Shown here piece by piece: positions 18,840-23,215 of a DNA stretch of 64,000 nucleotides. Numbering within the stretch: position 1 is the stretch's first letter; each line of letters starts with the position of its first letter. The stretch is from Pigmentibacter sp. JX0631 (GTDB lineage: Bacteria > Bdellovibrionota_B > Oligoflexia > Silvanigrellales > Silvanigrellaceae). The stretch spans positions 1,638,501 through 1,702,500 of the forward strand of contig NZ_CP123622.1 of assembly GCF_029873255.1 (NCBI RefSeq), given 5' to 3'. Position numbers and translations under genes: made by a program. The notes below the pieces were generated by a model. The model did no database searches. It was not told where the DNA came from and saw only the letters and a list, made by a program, of their open reading frames with translations.

Positions 18840-20366
18840 ATGATAGATAAAGATTCAAATCAAGTTTTTATAGATAAATTGCGTTCAAGATTTGTTGAGC
18901 TTGGATTATCTAAACAAACTGCTGCAAAAATAACTAAATTAGTAACCCCTGTAAAGGTTGATGGAAAGACTATTATATCATATTGTTCTGAACCTTTTTA
19001 CAAAGATCACATCATTTCCCCTAAACTTGATGAAATTGAAAAAATTGCCAGAGAATGTTGGGGGGCTGATTTTTCTTTTAAAATTGAAGATCACCCATTC
19101 CATGATTCAAAGATAGTAAAAAATAATTCTAAAAAAGAACAAAATGAAAATACTATAACTTTATTTCCTGATGATAACAATTATATAACTGATAAAAGAA
19201 AAAAACTTAAAAATAAGACAATTAATTTAGAAAAATCTATAAATACTTCTTCTAATTTAGAAATAGGTAATGAAAATCAAGTCACAGATGAAAAAGTTTT
19301 ATCAATAGTTTCCTCAGAAAAACCAAGAACATTAGACGCTACTCAAAATTTTGGTACTTTTATTCGTTGTGAAAGTAACTTAGTGGCATATTCTGCTTGT
19401 GAAGCTGTGGCAAAAAATCCAGGAAATCTGTCAAATCCTTTATTTATTTATGGAGCTACTGGCCTTGGTAAAACGCATCTATTACATTCAGTAGGTAATG
19501 AAATACTTCAAAAAATACCTGATGCAAAAATCCTTTATATTACCAGCGAAGACTTTGTTAATGACGTAATTCATCGAGGAATTCGTGTTGGAAAAATGGA
19601 CGAAGTTCGATCGAAATATAGTGCTTGTGATGTTTTACTTGTTGATGATATACAATTTTTAGAGAAAAAAGACGCTTGCCAAATAGAATTTTTCCATACT
19701 TTTAACGAACTTTACCAAAAACGGAAGCAAATAGTAATAACAAGTGATAAATTCCCTAAAGACATTCCAAATATTGAAGAACGACTAAAGAGCAGGTTCT
19801 TACAAGGCTTATTAGTTGATATTGAGCCGCCTGGATTTGAAGATAGAGTTGCTATAATCGAAACTAAAGCAAATTTATTAGGTTTAAAAATTAATCAAGA
19901 AATTTCATTTCTAATAGCAACGCACGCAAAAACAAATGTTAGAGAAATTCAAGGATTATTAAAAGACTTACTAATGAATCAACATATGACAGGAAGAAGT
20001 CCTACTATAGAATCAGTTACTATAATTTTGAAACGTAGATTTCCAACTGGATCAATGGAATCTACAATTGATACAACGGCTATACAAAAAGTTGTTGCAA
20101 ATCATTTCCAAATAAAAATGTCTGATTTAATGGGACAAAGTCGTCAACAAAAATTTGTTGTTGCTAGACATATCGCTATGTTTTTAGCGAAAGAATTATT
20201 AGGTTTACAAATCGTTGCAATAGCTAATGCTTTTAGTAAAAAAGATCACACAACCGTATTGCATGCAATGTCAAAAGTTAAAGAACTATTGGATAAAGAT
20301 GACGAATTTAGAGGTAATTTTTTGCAAATAAAAAGAAAAATAGAAGCTTTAATGCAATCTAACTAA
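18840..20366 (+). CDS. dnaA: Chromosomal replication initiator DnaA
   Basis: AAA+ initiator that binds DnaA boxes and melts the origin. Domain I covers about residues 1-85. A long Asn/Lys-rich linker (about 86-160) forms domain II. The AAA+ core has Walker A G-A-T-G-L-G-K-T at 205-212 and Walker B D-V-L-L-V-D-D at 264-270. The C-terminal DNA-binding domain ends with the signature K-K-D-H-T-T-V-L-H-A. The length of 508 is normal to slightly long. The ATG at 18840 follows AAAGAGG. The 3' end overlaps the convergent tsaC gene by 8 bases. Its target boxes lie about 1.1 kb further on, beyond tsaC. Confidence 0.98.
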   Translation: MIDKDSNQVFIDKLRSRFVELGLSKQTAAKITKLVTPVKVDGKTIISYCSEPFYKDHIISPKLDEIEKIARECWGADFSFKIEDHPFHDSKIVKNNSKKEQNENTITLFPDDNNYITDKRKKLKNKTINLEKSINTSSNLEIGNENQVTDEKVLSIVSSEKPRTLDATQNFGTFIRCESNLVAYSACEAVAKNPGNLSNPLFIYGATGLGKTHLLHSVGNEILQKIPDAKILYITSEDFVNDVIHRGIRVGKMDEVRSKYSACDVLLVDDIQFLEKKDACQIEFFHTFNELYQKRKQIVITSDKFPKDIPNIEERLKSRFLQGLLVDIEPPGFEDRVAIIETKANLLGLKINQEISFLIATHAKTNVREIQGLLKDLLMNQHMTGRSPTIESVTIILKRRFPTGSMESTIDTTAIQKVVANHFQIKMSDLMGQSRQQKFVVARHIAMFLAKELLGLQIVAIANAFSKKDHTTVLHAMSKVKELLDKDDEFRGNFLQIKRKIEALMQSN

Positions 20367-21468
20367 ATGTTACATATTTACCAGATGCTGCTCTGAAAAT
20401 TCTATCATAAATAGCAATTAATTCTTCATCACTCGCTTCAGAAAAATCAGGTAATAAAATATATTCTGCATTATGAATTATTTCACTTTTCCGCAAGTAA
20501 CTAAATAAATTTTTACTTGCTTCCAAATTATTTCCATTCATTGATAGATCATAATATTGTAAAACTTGTTCAGAATACTTTAAATTTTTCCCATTAAAGT
20601 CAATTAAGATAGTTTTTTTTAGATACTTTTTTAGAAATAATTCAGTTGTAACTTTATTTTTATTATTTTCATCTACTAAAATAAAAGATTCTATATTAGG
20701 TGAATAATGGGTCAATAATTGCCCTGGAGAGTCTAATTTTTCATTTTCAGAAGAATTCGAAACAACAGTTTTTTTAACTTTTTTTAGATTGAATGTTATC
20801 TTATTTTTCTTTAAAATCGAAGCAATTTGAATAGTACTGATAAAGCCTGGGCGTAATAAATGAATTTCATCATCTTCCATAATTTTAATAATTGTAGATT
20901 CTATTCCAATATTACAATCCTTATCTTGTTCTAAAATTATTAATTTTTCTTCATTTCCTAAATCATCCATTACATGTTGCGCTGTAGTGGGGCTCACATG
21001 CCCAAATTTATTCGCACTAGGAGCAGCAATCGGTAATTTAACTAATTTCAAAAGTTTTAAAGCAGTTTCTCCATTAGGAATTCTTAAGGCGATAGAATCA
21101 CCTCCTGCAGTTACTATTTTTGGTACACTACCAGAAGCCTTCACAATCATGGTTAAAGGACCTGGCCAAAACTCGTTCCCCAAGATGTCAAAACATTGTC
21201 TTTGAAAAGCAGTCATTTCTGATAAGCTTTCTGCTTGAACCATTCCACTTAAGTGAACAATAAGAGGATCTGATTTTGGTCTACCCTTTGCAAGAAAAAT
21301 CTTTTCAAGGGCTTTTTCATTTAGTGCATTTGCACCAAGCCCATAAACTGTTTCTGTTGGAAAGGCGACTAATTCCCCTGCTTGTAGAAGCTGGGAACAT
21401 TCTGCAAGTGACTCAGGTTTTAAAGCAGTTACAATTTTTGCCACATTCATCTCCAAATTTTTATTCAT
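20359..21468 (-). CDS. tsaC: L-threonylcarbamoyladenylate synthase (Sua5/YwlC type)
   Basis: Makes threonylcarbamoyl-AMP from threonine, bicarbonate and ATP, the first step of t6A modification at position 37 of ANN-decoding tRNAs. The YrdC domain occupies about residues 10-215, with P-T-E-T-V-Y-G-L-G-A-N-A near the start and P-S-A-N later. A linker carrying H-Y-S-P-N leads to a Sua5-specific C-terminal domain, so this is the long form (369 residues). The exact start is unclear: ATGs at 21468 and 21450 and a GTG at 21444 are in frame, and GGAG sits six bases before the GTG. The gene separates dnaA from oriC, and its promoter must lie within the origin. Confidence 0.93.
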   Translation of the reverse strand: MNKNLEMNVAKIVTALKPESLAECSQLLQAGELVAFPTETVYGLGANALNEKALEKIFLAKGRPKSDPLIVHLSGMVQAESLSEMTAFQRQCFDILGNEFWPGPLTMIVKASGSVPKIVTAGGDSIALRIPNGETALKLLKLVKLPIAAPSANKFGHVSPTTAQHVMDDLGNEEKLIILEQDKDCNIGIESTIIKIMEDDEIHLLRPGFISTIQIASILKKNKITFNLKKVKKTVVSNSSENEKLDSPGQLLTHYSPNIESFILVDENNKNKVTTELFLKKYLKKTILIDFNGKNLKYSEQVLQYYDLSMNGNNLEASKNLFSYLRKSEIIHNAEYILLPDFSEASDEELIAIYDRIFRAASGKYVTFS

Positions 21469-21673
21469 TTCGAGTTCTTAAAAGACTTATCCACATGTTA
21501 TCCACATAGATCATCCATCATTAGGATGTTCGCATTTTTTCCATATTTTAGAATGATTTTCAATGTTTTTCTAAAAAGTTATCCACATTAAAAACCAGAG
21601 TTATCCACATAACCCCAATCTAAAAAATATTATATAACATCACTTATGGGAATTTCTACGACCACTTTGGGTA

Positions 21674-21715
21674 TGTGGATAACGTGTGGACAACATGTGG
21701 ACAACGTGTGGATAA
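21674..21715 (-). repeat. DnaA-box array, four boxes at 11-bp spacing (minus)
   Basis: Boxes begin at 21674, 21685, 21696 and 21707, all reading TGTGGAYAA on the plus strand, with a constant 11-base period. The outer two are perfect and the inner two have one change (GACAA). The 11-base step puts the boxes on about the same DNA face. Confidence 0.95.
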
Positions 21716-21764
21716 GTACAAATGCTTAAAAAGTAATCACTATGTTATCCACATGAATTTTGAG

Positions 21765-21806
21765 TTTTCCACATCCTATCCACAGGTTTTCCACACGTTA
21801 TCCACA
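21765..21806 (+). repeat. DnaA-box array, four boxes at 11-bp spacing (plus)
   Basis: Boxes begin at 21765 (TTTTCCACA), 21776 (CTATCCACA), 21787 (TTTTCCACA) and 21798 (TTATCCACA), again exactly 11 bases apart and opposite in orientation to the array at 21674-21715. A single perfect box at 21745 lies between the arrays. Confidence 0.95.
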
Positions 21807-21874
21807 CGATTTTCAAGCTCAAAATAATGCTTTAGCACTTGAATTAATAAAGAAAAAACTTCTTCATTAGTAAG

Positions 21875-21915
21875 TTATCCACATAAAATGGCTTCACCTA
21901 CTACTACTTCTAATA
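21875..21915 (+). promoter_or_regulatory. Basal unwinding site: DnaA box plus DnaA-trio-like tract
   Basis: A perfect box (21875-21883) is followed, after a 14-base spacer, by the triplets CTA-CTA-CTA-CTT-CTA-ATA (21898-21915) and then an AT-rich stretch. This is the order of the Bacillus subtilis basal unwinding system, where such triplets (3'-[G/A]A[T/A] on the other strand) guide DnaA filament growth. The role here is inferred from that pattern. Confidence 0.7.
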
Positions 21916-22036
21916 TTTTGTTTTTAAATTTCTATTTAAGTGTATAAGAAGAGTTCCCCAAACAATCAAGCTTGAACAGCTGTAGACAATGGGTTAAGCA
22001 AATCACGTACAGGTAAATTTTTTTAAAGGTGGACAT

Positions 22037-23215
22037 ATGTTTAAAAAGAGCAAACGTTTTTTTTCATCCGACGTCCAAAGCATAAGCCCTGAAATATCAG
22101 CTGAGTTTGACAGGGACAAATTGGCGAGTGCGTTATTGTCAGTTAGTGCTGCACAAATAGACCCTGATATCGGATGGGTACAATTATCTTTTTCTGGAGG
22201 AAAAAAAGTAATTATTTCCTCTATAAGCCATAATTTAGCAATTAAATGTGAAATTGAAGCTCCATATTCGGGACAAGGTGTAATTAAAGTATCAGGAAAG
22301 CAATTTTCTGATTATGTAAAACAATTACCTTCAACTAAAGTCTTTTTAAAAGCTGAATTACCTTCAAGAATTCAATTAAAATGCGGAAGAAGTTCTGCAA
22401 AAATTCAATTAGTGCACGATCAGTCGCAAAGCAAAATTGATATACCTGATGCTGGAACTTCAATTAAAATTAAAGGTAATTTTATAGAACGTTGGGTATC
22501 TAGTTTTAAAGACTTCGTTTCTGTCGATGATAATCGCTTTTATGCTAATGGTGCTTTAATTTGGGCAGAAAGAAATTCAGAAGGAGTTCTACATGCTGTT
22601 GCAAGTGATGCCCTACGGTTAGCAAAGGCATCACTCACAGAAGGTATTCAAATTTTAAATTTAGATAACAGTCAGGTTTTAGTACCAAAAAAAGCTTTAG
22701 ATGAATTAAAAAGAGTTGCAAACATCATGCCTGATACTGATTTCATATTGAAGTGGCATGAAAAGGAATTATTTTTTTCTGTAGAGGCAGATGATTACAC
22801 AATGTTTGCAAAGTGTATTGCGGGTCAATATCCACCCTATGAAGCAGCTATTCCTCAACAGATCAACACAGAAATTCAATTAGATCTTAAGTCTATCCAA
22901 GATAGTGTAAAAAGATCCTTATTATTTGCAGATAAAAATAAAGTTATGAAATTTCATTTTGAAAACTCATTACTCACTATGGCGAGTTCTACTCCTGGTC
23001 AAAAGGAAGGTGAAGAAGTTATTGAGATGAGTTCTTCTATAGCATCTCCATTTGAAGTAAACTATAACGGTCACTTGATTATAGGTATTTTAGGTGTTTT
23101 ATCGGGATCAAGAGTTAATTTTGCTTGGGAAAATATGAACAGACCTGTTAAAATTACTGGCGAAAGTCAAAGGGGATTAGAAGTATTTTATCTTTTGGTT
23201 CCTGCACGTTTTTAA
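22037..23215 (+). CDS. dnaN: DNA polymerase III beta sliding clamp
   Basis: Ring-shaped processivity factor that tethers DNA polymerase III and many repair proteins. The 392-residue product shows the three-domain clamp pattern, including F-Y-A-N-G-A-L-I-W in the middle domain and a C-terminal Y-L-L-V-P-A-R-F close to the usual ending. It has about 20 extra N-terminal residues before the first clamp strand compared with the E. coli protein. The start has AAAGGTGG upstream. It lies directly after oriC and 29 bases before gyrB; recF, often found in this gap, is absent. Confidence 0.97.
   Translation: MFKKSKRFFSSDVQSISPEISAEFDRDKLASALLSVSAAQIDPDIGWVQLSFSGGKKVIISSISHNLAIKCEIEAPYSGQGVIKVSGKQFSDYVKQLPSTKVFLKAELPSRIQLKCGRSSAKIQLVHDQSQSKIDIPDAGTSIKIKGNFIERWVSSFKDFVSVDDNRFYANGALIWAERNSEGVLHAVASDALRLAKASLTEGIQILNLDNSQVLVPKKALDELKRVANIMPDTDFILKWHEKELFFSVEADDYTMFAKCIAGQYPPYEAAIPQQINTEIQLDLKSIQDSVKRSLLFADKNKVMKFHFENSLLTMASSTPGQKEGEEVIEMSSSIASPFEVNYNGHLIIGILGVLSGSRVNFAWENMNRPVKITGESQRGLEVFYLLVPARF

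Follow-up and report, generated by a model that had tools for sequence, protein, structure and literature searches.

The region 21487-21950 of the window (the 64,000-nucleotide stretch of the Pigmentibacter sp. JX0631 chromosome that we analyzed) is very probably the chromosomal oriC of this Silvanigrellaceae bacterium. We read its two opposed arrays of DnaA boxes as the DnaA-oligomerization region, and the box at 21875 together with the DnaA-trios at 21898-21915 as the unwinding end. Both parts are known, the opposed phased arrays from E. coli and the opening element from B. subtilis. We computed the anatomy, genomic setting and conservation of the region and established that it is unique in the genome; for DnaA binding, oligomer polarity, unwinding and helicase loading we draw on E. 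coli, B. subtilis and T. maritima. A literature search found no published work on any Silvanigrellaceae origin.

Genomic setting

The origin is flanked by dnaA and sua5 on one side and by dnaN, gyrB and gyrA on the other, as identified with Pfam. The dnaA gene (18840-20366, plus strand; Bac_DnaA 6e-58, Bac_DnaA_C 2e-23) was the single match when the genome was searched for DnaA-family genes, and dnaN, encoding the beta clamp (22037-23215, plus strand; DNA_pol3_beta domains), is followed by gyrB and gyrA (gyrase families). Between dnaA and oriC lies sua5, encoding threonylcarbamoyl-AMP synthase (20359-21468, minus strand; Sua5_yciO_yrdC 5e-50, Sua5_C). The gene occupies this position, convergent with dnaA, in those Silvanigrellaceae loci that could be checked. 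At the other class loci, outside the Silvanigrellaceae, no sua5 match was found and dnaA is directly upstream of oriC; sua5 looks like an insertion that separated dnaA from the origin.

GC skew was sampled in twenty 20-kb stretches of the genome. It was negative or near zero in 9 of the 10 samples before oriC and positive in 9 of the 10 after it, and within the window it changed from -0.085 to +0.118 across the arrays, so that the skew switches near dnaA and dnaN. Nine of the genome's 58 perfect TTATCCACA boxes fall within 397 bp (21487-21883), and no second dense cluster of perfect boxes was found in the genome, making this dense cluster unique in the chromosome. The intergenic region contains one GATC. 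The closest named relatives are Fluviispira multicolorata and Spirobacillus cienkowskii, both Silvanigrellaceae, and a scan of named genomes found seven loci.

We also compared the DnaA protein encoded in the window with that of E. coli. Residues R281, R285, R399, D433, H434, T435 and T436 of the E. coli protein are invariant in it, and five of these (R285, R399, D433, H434 and T435) are the arginine-finger and box-reading residues, as known for DnaA in general and from PMC5742627. No Pfam match to DnaA_N (domain I) was obtained for the window DnaA, although domains III and IV score strongly, and helicase recruitment could therefore differ.

The two arrays and other DnaA boxes

The left, DUE-distal array comprises four predicted DnaA boxes on the minus strand, starting at 21674, 21685, 21696 and 21707 (21674-21715), and the right, DUE-proximal array four on the plus strand, starting at 21765, 21776, 21787 and 21798 (21765-21806). 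Both assignments rest on a box scan, an inverted repeat and genus conservation. On re-scanning, the eight coordinates, the orientations and the 11-bp steps given in an earlier note on this DNA all proved correct, as did the perfect box that it placed between the arrays, which is a predicted plus-strand box at 21745-21753. The mismatch boxes are each one base off TTATCCACA (TTGTCCACA twice, TTTTCCACA twice and CTATCCACA once). Independently of the box scan, find_repeats recovered the arrays as a 50-bp inverted repeat (21674-21723 and 21757-21806) that is 80% complementary.

Taken singly, one-mismatch boxes are about as frequent in the window as expected (110 observed vs. 102.8 expected), and the signal therefore lies in their clustering and phasing. 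The pattern YTDTCCACA-NN-YTDTCCACA matches the genome (3,654,982 bases) seven times, and all seven matches lie at 1659987-1660306, the roughly 320 bp of oriC; six of these 11-bp-step pairs make up the two arrays and the seventh is formed by the boxes at 21487 and 21498. The reversed control pattern had no match in the genome. Chance arising from base composition was rejected as the source of the phasing on this genome-wide count and on the class spacing test described below, in agreement with the earlier note. Of that note's overall interpretation, DnaA boxes in an origin and a non-chance phasing, which proved to be conserved in related origins, stand, whereas the unusualness of the layout and a strict same-face phasing do not.

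Boxes at 21487, 21498, 21579, 21601 and 21875, as well as the DnaA-trio element, were absent from that note. The perfect boxes 21487 and 21498 (21487-21506, plus strand) are one 11-bp step apart just upstream of sua5 and are invariant in seven genus members; the perfect boxes 21579 and 21601 (21579-21609, plus strand), 22 bp apart, are likewise invariant in the genus. The spacings of this group (11, 81 and 22) are also invariant in the genus, and a conserved A+T-rich block (21531-21566) lies among its boxes. The group at 21487-21609 may serve as the promoter region of sua5 or form an upstream portion of the origin.

The unwinding end

The perfect TTATCCACA box at 21875-21883 (plus strand), invariant in the genus, is the DUE-proximal box of a predicted basal unwinding system. 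The published search rule for such systems calls for a box with two mismatches at most, a spacer of 0-16 bp and at least three trinucleotides with a central A (PMC8287927), and the consensus DnaA-trio is 3'-GAT-5' (PMC8287927, PMC10721633). Box 21875 is followed, after a 14-bp spacer, by six trios (21898-21915, minus strand; 3'-GAT GAT GAT GAA GAT TAT-5', top strand CTACTACTACTTCTAATA), in which 14 of 18 positions are invariant in the genus. The stretch 21900-21949, a probable DNA unwinding element, was the least stable 50-mer sampled in 10-bp steps across the intergenic region, with a nearest-neighbor stability of 51.0 kcal/mol (3.8th percentile of the window). The trios past box 21875 and this least stable 50-mer together place the unwinding element on the dnaN side and make the right array the DUE-proximal one. 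A DUE beside the left array (21610-21659), considered for its A+T content, was rejected: it is less unstable than 21900-21949 (54.5 vs. 51.0), and neither its sequence nor its length is conserved.

Box and trios recur across much of the class, and CTACTACTACT is invariant in the genus. A near-box, TTATACACT (21939-21947, minus strand), faces the DUE from the dnaN side and is invariant in seven genus members; it sits in the strongly conserved AAGTGTATAAGAAG, just past the trios. Between the right array and the DUE-proximal box is a box-free gap of 68 bp (21807-21874), fixed in length in the genus with a mean sequence identity of 48%. A search of this gap for an IHF site yielded none that was convincing, only IHF-like matches with two mismatches; the genome encodes five HU/IHF-family proteins.

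Conservation and the spacing rule

Six genus relatives retain both the minus and the plus array, as well as the central box. The earlier note had proposed that a lack of phasing in related origins would count against its reading; when they were checked, phasing was present in both the genus relatives and the class loci. In the seven-member alignment the array boxes have at most one variable position each, mostly position 3, with the exception of the fourth right box, which is missing from two genomes (G003 and G007, with three boxes each). The 2-bp array spacers are 33-71% identical among the seven genus members, and array steps across these seven species are 11, or 12 at most. Two distances were constant in all seven members: 20 bp, start to start, from the central box to the right array, and 77 bp from the last right-array box to box 21875, G003 and G007 included. 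Inner positions that hold mismatch boxes in the window hold perfect consensus boxes in sister species.

Some variation was seen within the family. The Spirobacillus-type origins L008 and L009 have three right-array boxes rather than four, keep the 20-bp and 77-bp anchor distances, and are also 22-23 bp shorter in the stretch from box 21601 to the left array. In another family relative (L010, genome G008) the box set upstream of dnaN is enlarged, and many of its boxes are TTGTCCACA, arranged in several phased runs. The stretch presumed to hold the trios of this origin (CTACCCCTTCTTCC) is degenerate.

For the spacing survey we used a class-level sample from outside the Silvanigrellaceae; a phylum-level search gave nearly the same genomes. 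Among same-orientation box pairs 9-20 bp apart in this sample, 56 of 57 were at 11 bp (27 pairs) or 12 bp (29 pairs), compared with a mean of 13 pairs at these two steps, and a maximum of 23, when the same boxes were placed at random (2000 trials). Most origins outside the family (26 of 32) have a minus-run, then a plus-run, then the unwinding element. Four-plus-four arrays are especially clear at loci L029, L066 and L030, and some class members (families f4, f7 and f11) keep the array layout only in parts.

The exact 11-bp step stressed in the earlier note is not required in the relatives, where steps of 11 and 12 are about equally used. From this near equality the constraint looks like a spacer of 2-3 bp that would permit contacts between neighbors, as judged from box positions, rather than strict same-face phasing, and the exact 11 of the window is one setting of this 2-3-bp spacer rule. 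The proposal that all boxes of an array strictly face the same side of the helix is likewise too strong: three 11-bp steps overshoot three 10.5-bp turns by about 1.5 bp, and the drift is larger in relatives with 12-bp steps. How far the trio-side box lies from the last array box also varies by family, the distance being 43, 53, 64-65, 77 or 79 bp start to start (loci such as L029, L030, L062, L066, L074 and the window). These values differ by roughly one array unit, as if units had been gained or lost at that end.

Comparison with known origins

The earlier note considered the symmetry and phasing unusual. However, E. coli oriC already has two opposed arrays of four sites, spaced by exactly 2 bp. 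Its order is R1, R5M-tau2-I1-I2, R2, C3-C2-I3-C1, R4 (Rozgaja 2011, as reviewed in PMC4451416, PMC5742627); each half holds four low-affinity sites exactly 2 bp apart, the two arrays are opposed in orientation with R2 in between, and there is a gap of 45 bp between R1, the DUE-proximal box, and the left array (PMC4451416). Re-measuring the right array in the E. coli locus (L033), we found C3, C2, I3 and C1 at 537, 548, 559 and 570, with R4 at 582 and R1 at 402. The window shares with E. coli the two opposed four-site arrays, the 2-bp spacers and the single box between, and in both origins the DUE-proximal array points to the DUE, with a box-free gap and then a DUE-proximal consensus box beyond it. 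This gap is 45 bp in E. coli as published, 68 bp in the window and 44 bp in several class relatives. The two origins differ in other respects. The central box of the window shares the orientation of the DUE-proximal array, whereas R2 shares that of the distal one; the window origin is linked to dnaN; and it has clear DnaA-trios in place of the AT-rich 13-mers and weak trio score of E. coli. The array boxes also differ, being consensus or one mismatch from it in the window but low-affinity sites in E. coli. With 0-1 mismatch each, their sequences suggest a higher affinity than that of the E. coli low-affinity sites, and ATP-dependent staging may therefore differ between the two origins.

The unwinding end resembles that of B. 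subtilis (boxes 6/7 plus trios; PMC6669920, PMC8287927, PMC10721633) in having a box, a spacer and repeated 3'-GAT-5' in the right orientation within the most easily melted stretch. Unlike B. subtilis, the window has one box beside the trios instead of a tandem pair, a 14-bp spacer that is within the 16-bp limit (PMC8287927), and an opposed double array 68 bp away. Bdellovibrio bacteriovorus oriC, according to the part of its description available to us, also lies in the dnaA-dnaN region and has multiple DnaA boxes and DnaA-trios in its DUE (PMC5124646). In that organism, however, the 5' end of the origin holds the DUE and two boxes are inside dnaA, whereas in the window the DUE lies towards dnaN; that part of the account mentions no opposed phased arrays (PMC5124646). 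Thermotoga maritima oriC likewise has same-orientation boxes with a 2-bp separation, and Thermotoga DnaA forms its two-site complex maximally on boxes so arranged; its minimal region, in contrast, has five boxes without mirrored four-plus-four arrays (PMC10316083).

Proposed working and alternatives

In E. coli, a head-to-tail DnaA oligomer assembles on each half of oriC, the two having opposite polarity; the DUE-proximal oligomer suffices for unwinding, and the distal one aids helicase loading (PMC5742627). Given this geometry, the 2-bp optimum of Thermotoga and the retained DnaA residues, the same assembly, with trios guiding the unwinding, is the best explanation for the window. DnaA would occupy the boxes of 21487-21950, and the 2-bp spacers would let neighboring protomers touch head-to-tail within each array, giving two oligomers of opposite polarity, one per array. 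The right-array oligomer, together with DnaA at 21875, would then drive a DnaA-ATP oligomer onto the trio strand and the DNA would open towards dnaN, while the opposed left array would support helicase loading for the second fork. Bending or looping would have to bridge the 68-bp gap between the right array and box 21875. The suggestion in the earlier note that the arrays could seed a DnaA filament fits well here, since oligomer seeding is the known role of such spacing in E. coli (PMC4451416, PMC5742627).

Instead, the arrays might mainly titrate DnaA or regulate sua5 or dnaN, leaving box 21875 and the trios alone as the true origin core. B. subtilis DnaA does open DNA with two boxes and trios (PMC8287927), boxes 21487 and 21498 are just upstream of the sua5 start, and some relatives carry trios with few array boxes. 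However, titration requires neither fixed spacing nor mirror orientation, and here the spacing, the order and the distance to the trio box have been retained although the spacers have changed in sequence; moreover, this geometry has a working role within oriC of E. coli (PMC5742627). We consider this explanation improbable. Less credible still, and very unlikely in our estimate, is that an 11-bp unit was duplicated in tandem and left the even spacing as a by-product under no constraint. The boxes do form an 11-bp tandem series and array size differs by one unit in G003 and G007, but the spacer dinucleotides have diverged to 33-71% identity with steps still at 11 (12 at most) in seven species. 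Steps of 11 or 12 also hold across several families. A neutral array would be expected to slip out of register.

Since the tandem repeats are roughly iteron-sized, we also considered whether an iteron origin, plasmid-like or derived from a phage, had integrated near dnaN. However, the repeats are DnaA boxes, there is no Rep gene between sua5 and dnaN, the site is the GC-skew switch, and the layout is common to dnaN-linked origins across the class. A plasmid-like origin was accordingly rejected on skew, gene context and class-wide conservation, and we give the idea almost no credence.

Implications

The reason why DnaA-box arrangements differ between bacteria has been described as unclear, and the two-cluster opposed layout has been named for E. 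coli and Vibrio cholerae (PMC10316083). We tentatively propose, as a possibility we hold at somewhat less than even, that an opposed four-plus-four geometry like that of E. coli, having spacers of 2-3 bp and a set distance to the unwinding box, belongs to a separate class-level lineage as an old or a convergent trait and occurs there alongside clear DnaA-trios. If so, with boxes this near to consensus, selection would act on spacing and orientation and not on low affinity. A single origin would then also bear hallmarks of both proposed opening models, that in which a single strand is recruited to a bent array and that in which a continuous filament runs from box to trios. The interest for specialists lies in class-wide conservation far from the enterics. 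The natural variation in step (11 or 12 bp), in gap length (43-79 bp start to start) and in the number of units makes these origins a comparative set suited to the question of which parts of the geometry DnaA needs.
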